A stretch of 64,000 nucleotides of DNA from NCBI RefSeq assembly GCF_027359415.1, contig NZ_CP114780.1, positions 1,448,764 to 1,512,763 on the forward strand. Direction: 5' to 3'. Source of the stretch: Prochlorococcus marinus str. MIT 0918. GTDB taxonomy: Bacteria > Cyanobacteriota > Cyanobacteriia > PCC-6307 > Cyanobiaceae. A program made the translations under genes and the position numbers. Of this stretch, positions 5,863-6,991 are shown in pieces; within the stretch, counting starts at the first letter, position 1; each line of letters starts with the position of its first letter. The notes under the pieces are model-generated. The model saw only the letters and a list, made by a program, of their open reading frames with translations. It was not told the DNA's origin and searched no databases.

Positions 5863-6991
5863 GTGCAAGATCTTACTGATTTTAAGAAAACAATTTCTGT
5901 TTTAACTAAGCGTCTGAAGAATTCTCAAGACTGTCTTTGACGTACCTCGTTTAAATGCACTTCAACAAGATCTTGAGCAGATTGCTGCGCAACCTGAATT
6001 TTGGACTGATCAGCAGAAGGCGAAAAAACAGATGCGCCAACTTGATGAGGTTAAGGACCAATTAACTAAATTAGCCCAATGGCATAGTGCTATAGATGAT
6101 GCTAACGCTTCTTTAGAGCTCTATGATCTTGAACCTGATGAGCAAATGCTGGGAGAGGCTAAAGTTGGACTGAATAAATTGCAAGCAGAACTTGATCTTT
6201 GGGAATTGGAGCGTTTGTTAAGTGGTCCTTATGATAAAGAAGGAGCAGTATTGGCTATAAATGCTGGTGCTGGAGGCACAGATGCTCAAGATTGGGCTCA
6301 GATGTTATTACGTATGTATACTCGATGGGCAGAAGGGCATGGAATGAAAGTAAAACTTACTGAACTTTCCGAAGGTGAAGAGGCCGGTATCAAAAGTGCA
6401 ACAATTGAGATAGAAGGCAGATATGCTTATGGTTATTTGCAAAATGAGAAAGGAACCCATCGTTTGGTTCGGATTTCACCTTTTAATGCAAATGCAAAAC
6501 GTCAGACAAGCTTTGCAGGCGTTGAAGTTATGCCACAATTAGATGATAATGTTCAGCTAGAGATTCCTGAAAAGGATTTAGAAATAACTACGAGTCGATC
6601 AGGTGGTGCTGGAGGACAAAATGTTAATAAAGTTGAGACAGCAGTGCGTATTCTTCATATCCCTACTGGGTTAGCTGTTCGTTGTACCCAAGAGAGATCT
6701 CAACTTCAAAATAAGGAAAAGGCGATGGCTTTATTAAAGGCAAAATTGATGATTATTGCACAAGAACAAAGAGCTGCAGAAATTGCAGATATAAGAGGTG
6801 ACATAGTGGAAGCAGCATGGGGTAATCAAATTAGAAATTATGTTTTTCATCCTTATCAAATGGTTAAGGATTTACGTACTTCTAAAGAATCCAATGATGT
6901 TGAAGCTGTGATGAATGGGGATTTGGATTTATTTATTCAATCTCTCCTTTTACAAGGAATTGAGACTAAAAACAATCAAACTCATAATTAA
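5863..6991 (+). CDS. prfB: peptide chain release factor 2 with programmed +1 frameshift
   Basis: RF2 terminates translation at UGA and UAA. The coding sequence is split. A GTG-initiated first part of 25 codons (5863-5937, beginning MQDLTDFKK) ends at an in-frame TGA (5938-5940) in the context CTT TGA C. Shifting +1 at CTT continues as DVPRLNALQ without a break to 6991, giving about 375 residues. The second part has the SPF stop-codon recognition tripeptide typical of RF2 and the catalytic GGQ ([11 protein letters not shown]). The leader peptide aligns with the E. coli RF2 N-terminus, so this is autoregulatory recoding and not a sequencing error. The usual internal Shine-Dalgarno is not seen. 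DUF3285 and ybeY follow. Confidence 0.95.
5935..5941 (+). promoter_or_regulatory. prfB +1 recoding site (CTT TGA C)
   Basis: The heptamer CTTTGAC is the conserved RF2 slip site: tRNA-Leu at CTT shifts onto TTT when RF2 is scarce and UGA decodes slowly. The C after TGA is the weak-termination context found at known sites. In E. coli an AGGGGG element lies three bases upstream of CTT; here the upstream bases read CAAGACTGT, without a purine-rich Shine-Dalgarno match. Confidence 0.9.

Follow-up and report, generated by a model that had tools for sequence, protein, structure and literature searches.

A conserved mRNA hairpin upstream of the prfB +1 frameshift site in Cyanobacteriia and its decay in Prochlorococcus marinus MIT 0918

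Results

The prfB gene of MIT 0918 is split by an early UGA

The window analyzed here is a 64,000-nucleotide stretch of the Prochlorococcus marinus str. MIT 0918 genome (NZ_CP114780.1, positions 1,448,764 to 1,512,763, forward strand). It contains a prfB gene interrupted by an early in-frame UGA at CUU-UGA-C (Table 1). The initial annotation of an intact CTTTGAC heptamer was borne out: the reading frame opens with GTG at 5863 and runs for 25 sense codons to the internal stop, with CTT at 5935-5937, TGA at 5938-5940 and C at 5941. The first +1-frame codon is GAC (5939-5941), from which the frame continues through 5942-6991. Its product was identified as RF2 (TIGR00020, E=2e-141), with the SPF and GGQ motifs present, and comparison with the sister RF2 indicated purifying selection (dN 0.089, dS 1.54). 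The 1.79 Mb genome of this strain (one contig, 99.99% complete) yielded no further RF2 gene. CTTTGAC occurs 4 times in the window against 10 expected, so the heptamer alone is no commoner than chance; its placement in prfB is not a chance event, because every one of the 281 Cyanobacteriia loci in the main set has it at the identical prfB position. The sequence constraint on the +1 frame supports RF2 expression by this strain.

Table 1. Features of the prfB shift region in the window (window coordinates).
Feature	Position	Strand	Remarks
prfB zero-frame leader ORF	5863..5940	+	GTG to internal UGA, 25 codons; GTG position matched in sister loci L083 and L088
Weak register-shifted alternative stem, GUCU-GA-AG-AAUU-CU-CA-AGAC	5912..5931	+	-3.4 kcal/mol, not better than shuffles
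Decayed hairpin 5′ arm	5913..5919	+	TCTGAAG; consensus CCTGGGY / CCTGAGC
Decayed hairpin 3′ arm	5923..5929	+	TCTCAAG; consensus RCCCAGG / GCTCAGG
Site of the Shine-Dalgarno-like AGGA of relatives	5927..5930	+	AAGA in window; AGGA in 280/281 loci
Shift heptamer CTT TGA C (slippery CUUU, weak stop UGAC)	5935..5941	+	Invariant across the 281-locus set
RF2 body, +1 frame, 349 codons	5942..6991	+	Reached only via frameshift

A predicted hairpin precedes the shift site throughout Cyanobacteriia

The comparison covered 289 prfB shift sites taken from picocyanobacterial records and from genomes of the genus, family and phylum, comprising 281 sites from Cyanobacteriia and 8 from other classes. The norm of AGGGGG that the annotation had presumed for the clade proved wrong, and a weak AGGA inside a conserved hairpin was found instead. 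The consensus of the 281 Cyanobacteriia sites is CGCCTGGGNNNNNCCCAGGACTRT-CTTTGAC, spelled in codons as CGC CTG GGN NNN NCC CAG GAY TRY CTT TGA C. Within it, CCTGGGN-NNN-NCCCAGG is a perfect inverted repeat; the 3′ arm stops at -6, counted from the first base of CTT. This predicts a hairpin with a 7-bp stem and a 3-nt loop that spans -22 to -6 and carries the Shine-Dalgarno (SD)-like AGGA in its 3′ arm. When stems of at least 6 bp near the site were tabulated, 139 of the 182 distinct sites had one ending at -6, whereas no other position exceeded 3.

The hairpin has a median energy of about -12.0 kcal/mol. A strong SD-like element (AGGGGG or AGGAGG) 3 nt before CUU is absent: the SD:anti-SD duplex reaches about -4.2 to -4.5 kcal/mol in Cyanobacteriia and about 0 in the window, compared with -12.5 kcal/mol for the E. 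coli prfB sequence, whose AGGGGGUAUCUUUGAC core was confirmed and whose bases upstream of AGGGGGUAU are provisional. The 8 sites of the phylum that fall outside Cyanobacteriia (L208-L215), in classes taken to be non-photosynthetic solely from placement and genome size, carry AGGAG or AGGAGG here (mean duplex -9.5 kcal/mol), and the conserved hairpin is absent from them. A further site from another class of this phylum (L216, family f30) reads AGGGGG-TTG-CTT-TGA-T, a canonical strong SD with T after the stop.

All 7 pairs are kept in 256 of the 281 loci and 6 pairs in 22, such that at least 6 of 7 are retained in 278; the remaining three are the window (5 pairs) and L076 and L101 (4 pairs). Positions -8 to -5 read AGGA in every locus but the window (280 of 281). 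A strict hairpin-plus-heptamer pattern matched 367 of 388 Cyanobacteriia genomes, representing 148 of 155 genera, and the reversed control pattern gave zero matches in the same 388 genomes. These comparisons demonstrate, at the level of sequence, a conserved predicted mRNA hairpin immediately before the +1 shift site of prfB in class Cyanobacteriia, accompanied by a weak AGGA and lacking a strong SD-like element. By gene, slippery site and stop, the class belongs to the prfB +1 frameshift family, but its sequences lack the strong SD.

Exceptions partly separate the hairpin from the other elements of the site

Two Prochlorococcus-lineage loci (L076 and L101, genus g7) have lost the hairpin (CGCTTGAAAAATGCACAGGACTGT) and kept AGGA, which makes them a natural single-loss control and implies that the hairpin is not indispensable. 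The reverse is seen in L352 and L353 (family f19) and L361 (f12), where AGC replaces AGG and the stem is kept, with an anti-SD duplex of 0 to +1.2 kcal/mol and a hairpin of -7 to -8.5 kcal/mol. In L355-L357 (f18) the triplet is GGG, forming a U-G pair within the stem. Milder departures comprise a bulged stem (L350), a mismatch (L349), AGGG (L351) and, on a deep branch, a retained 6-bp stem with two wobbles (L364). Six loci keep the stem and have a stop context other than TGAC, namely TGAG (L354, L363), TGAT (L358-L360) and TGAA (L362). Through these six sites the usually near-invariant +4 C is lost in at least three families (f4, f40 and f44). The frameshift was lost in none of the genomes with a readable site; two others gave no full RF2 match and one only a fragment.

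Several further observations were made in these genomes. In two genomes of genus g60, the normal prfB is preceded at a distance of about 330 bp by a second RF2-like gene (G353:C1:246224-248361 and G298:C1:4523709-4525842); it shares 50-51% identity with the query, and the matched region contains a single in-frame TGA. The HIP1 octamer (GCGATCGC), or most of it, adjoins the 5′ arm in many non-picocyanobacterial prfB genes (L157, L160, L170, L171, L174 and L176). The hairpin is not a dispersed repeat, with 1-4 loose matches per genome and most of the off-target ones mismatched. One contig labelled as a Verrucomicrobiales MAG (L062) carries a Synechococcus-type prfB, probably through a binning error.

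The constancy of AGGA raises the alternative that this weak element, which lies one base closer to the P site than its E. coli counterpart, stimulates shifting through the anti-SD, with the hairpin as a by-product or an insulator. This would accommodate the AGGAG or AGGAGG of the sister classes, the AGGAG seen in a few cyanobacteria (L006, L086 and L204) and the AGGA retained in hairpin-less L101. We nevertheless regard it as rather unlikely, given that the duplex, at about -4.2 kcal/mol, is weaker than the -9.5 to -12.5 kcal/mol seen elsewhere, that the 5′ arm, which makes no anti-SD contact, is frozen as strongly as AGG, that AGG was dropped with the stem retained in three genomes from two families, and that AGG is sequestered once the hairpin folds. 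The contributions of AGGA and the hairpin cannot be fully separated by conservation, because AGGA is also nearly invariant.

It is less probable still that the hairpin is a genuine RNA element serving some other role, such as mRNA decay, transcription attenuation, protein binding or the blocking of initiation at the internal AGGA. Position and conservation alone are no proof of a recoding role, and four representative loci gave no match at the gathering score among 4227 Rfam families. However, the distance to the shift codon is fixed class-wide, no T-run follows the hairpin, the element is not a dispersed repeat, and the sister classes from which it is missing have a strong SD in its place.

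Both elements have decayed in the window strain

In the window, the bases preceding the heptamer (5911-5934) read CGTCTGAAGAATTCTCAAGACTGT and contain neither AGG nor any SD-like run; CAAGACTGT stands where an AGG-containing sequence is usual. The corresponding site of the sister genome G001 is CGCCTGAGCAATGCTCAGGACTGT, with a hairpin of about -10 kcal/mol, and AGG has become AAG in the window. Of the clade hairpin, 5 of 7 pairs are left, two of them G-U, and two positions are mismatched. What folding remains amounts to -3.4 to -4.8 kcal/mol, and shuffled sequence does as well, such that the stable hairpin found immediately 5′ of the E-site codon in the class is not present in this strain. Within 14 nt upstream of CTT, the best anti-SD duplex has an energy of about 0 kcal/mol, compared with about -4.2 kcal/mol in relatives. 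No other genome found has lost both the hairpin and AGGA, and we interpret this one as a divergent lineage that would operate with neither component.

Searches for substitutes covered both elements and the rRNA. From -60 to +50, no replacement SD stronger than -3.2 kcal/mol was found, and the only replacement hairpin was the register-shifted stem of Table 1 (z -0.85; 43 of 200 shuffles folded equally well). The 16S anti-SD of this genome is intact (CTGGATCACCTCCTAA), which rules out a mutated 16S 3′ end as the cause and places the lost pairing on the mRNA side.

The absence of an internal SD that the initial annotation reported for this gene is accordingly upheld, and its proposals as to what takes the place of the SD divide between clade and strain. 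A different stimulator fits the clade, where it is likely to be the hairpin; in the window strain, whose hairpin has decayed too, slow decoding alone fits, perhaps with a very weak remnant. A purine-rich stimulator at another spacing, named there as a refutation, has a partial counterpart in the relatives, AGGA shifted by 1 nt compared with E. coli, and is absent from the window.

The RF2 of this strain must still arise by shifting, because the post-shift +1 codons are conserved and no start codon precedes the ATG at 6032; since RF2 has to come from the +1 frame, inefficient shifting at CUU-UGA-C is most likely. This would take place during an RF2-limited pause, helped at best by a weak residual hairpin. 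The strain thus probably shifts poorly and leans on RF2 shortage, and autoregulation would balance poor shifting at a lower RF2 level. TGA makes up 20.7% of stops in this genome and 26.0% in the sister (crude ORF calls), which fits a reduced RF2 need via stop-codon usage without being proof, and is suggestive at most.

The same ATG opens an in-frame ORF of 319 aa, and RF2 of the window strain might instead initiate there, past the shift site; alternatively, the unusual bases might be sequencing errors. Either explanation appears very improbable: the 30 residues between the shift and this ATG are conserved RF2 sequence, the genome is a single, nearly complete contig in which no second RF2 gene was found, and the changes are several and scattered like ordinary divergence in a gene under purifying selection.

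Codon usage in the stem indicates selection on the RNA

Changes in the stem codons were counted on a tree for which only the post-shift part of the RF2 protein was used, which makes the phylogeny independent of the stem. The stem Leu codon CTG changed once, whereas counts of 32-50 were obtained for 18 conserved Leu columns in prfB; the Arg codon CGC changed 4 times, compared with 29-48 at the comparison Arg columns; and the Gln codon CAG changed once, in the window itself, compared with 11-34. In the AT-rich genus g13, all three codons are kept in 14 of 14 distinct sites, where prfB usage predicts 2-3% for CTG and CGC and 19% for CAG. Codon usage alone yields 4.6-4.9 of the 7 pairs in G+C-richer groups, and recoding the HL group by its own usage gives 4.0 expected pairs against 7.0 observed.

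Covariation is limited to pairs 7-15 and 9-13, the latter often open. Pair 7-15 is GC in 35, GU in 10, AU in 10 and mismatched in 3 of 58 distinct sites; 95% of cells are paired, a share that falls to at most 55% after a one-column offset of the partner. At prfB, the combination of A7 with C15 is absent from all 281 sites, whereas A-C is common in chance matches elsewhere in the genomes. A test of independent pairs on the tree was underpowered (5 pairs, p 0.25). The codon freeze is offered as the stronger argument for RNA-level selection, outweighing covariation, and compensation at pair 7-15 would bear only indirectly on stem function in +1 shifting.

The encoded peptide (RLGKTQDYL or RLGNAQDCL) keeps R, L, G and Q in most groups, but a nascent-peptide or protein-fold constraint with a coincidental inverted repeat is scarcely credible as the source of this conservation, since synonymous positions are frozen, a Gly-to-Ser change (GGC to AGC) is accompanied by a synonymous GCC to GCT, Arg-to-His or Arg-to-Leu changes retain the paired third base (CAC, CTC), and recoding by group usage yields far fewer pairs.

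Discussion

We consider it likely, judging from comparative sequence data and from analogy with engineered hairpins, that the cyanobacterial hairpin re-forms behind the ribosome and stimulates +1 slippage, and that the window strain has lost both components and shifts inefficiently. The ribosome would melt the hairpin while translating through it. With CUU in the P site and UGA in the A site, the 3′ arm would sit in the platform and exit region usually taken by the SD:anti-SD helix; the positions of the arm (-12 to -6) coincide in part with those of the E. coli SD helix (-9 to -4), and two bases remain before the E-site codon. When RF2 is scarce, refolding behind the E site would favour forward movement on the mRNA and block backward movement, peptidyl-tRNA-Leu would re-pair from CUU to UUU, and RF2 would be made. 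Because a melted stem can re-form only once its 3′ arm exits the mRNA path, closing of the basal pairs would favour forward motion, which is the +1 direction. The hairpin would thus be the equivalent of the SD:anti-SD duplex, aided by the weak AGGA, for which both the 5′ arm and 16S rRNA are possible pairing partners.

Experimental precedents exist for such an effect. On E. coli ribosomes, +1 shifting at CUUUGA is enhanced by artificial hairpins placed beside the E site, to about 60% of the SD effect; stimulation falls when the hairpins are destabilised and occurs only without RF2 (Huang 2018, PMC6321510). Upstream hairpins also stimulate +1 shifting in yeast (Cho 2013, PMC3639245). The same study reports that attenuation of -1 shifting by an upstream hairpin depends on stability and spacing, the effect being halved in a eukaryotic -1 system when the hairpin was moved from 2 to 5 nt. 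Given this spacing effect, the distance of 5 nt between the stem base and CTT in Cyanobacteriia counts against the hairpin model.

In gene, CUUU slippery site, UGA(C) and +1 direction, as well as in presumed RF2 autoregulation, the cyanobacterial sites resemble the E. coli-type prfB frameshift (AGGGGG-UAU-CUU-UGA-C), and they differ in having no strong SD and a hairpin at -22 to -6 that encloses a weak AGGA. With the refolding hairpins of Huang 2018 (PMC6321510) and Cho 2013 (PMC3639245) they share a stable hairpin located immediately upstream of the E site as a putative mimic of the SD duplex, and with the former also the CUUUGA site and bacterial ribosomes. Those hairpins were engineered or coronavirus-derived and placed in reporters, whereas the cyanobacterial one is natural, conserved and within the RF2 gene. 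In T4 gene 60 bypassing and the barley yellow dwarf virus 5′ stem-loop, as treated in sections of a general review (PMC5009743), RNA structure behind the ribosome likewise affects forward movement or recoding; these cases, as presented there, involve a long bypass or viral -1 shifting rather than a +1 shift at a stop, and their sequences are unrelated.

A 12,753-genome survey found the prfB SD to be hyper-conserved and approaching AGGGGG, with hairpins and cyanobacteria unmentioned in its text (PMC12421855), and an RF2 hairpin is not described in the searched passages of the general review cited above. Our literature searches returned no description of a cyanobacterial prfB hairpin. Priority is uncertain, as Baranov et al. 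2002, reportedly the first survey of RF2 sites, may mention stems.

Recoding by mRNA-rRNA pairing has its textbook example in the RF2 frameshift, which has been described as nearly uniform in bacteria. Frameshift-site predictors that demand an SD motif could overlook or mis-score cyanobacterial prfB. Genomes with a single loss, retaining only the hairpin or only AGG, together with the one double-loss genome, provide a natural test set. On balance, we lean towards the view that an ancestor of the oxygenic cyanobacteria swapped an rRNA-pairing stimulator for a forward-pushing hairpin, which would constitute a natural, class-wide case of +1 frameshifting driven by a hairpin, and that in the window strain the shift survives the loss of all recognisable stimulators. 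If this is true, the duplex behind the E site would be mechanically decisive in this recoding event, and the rRNA itself would not.
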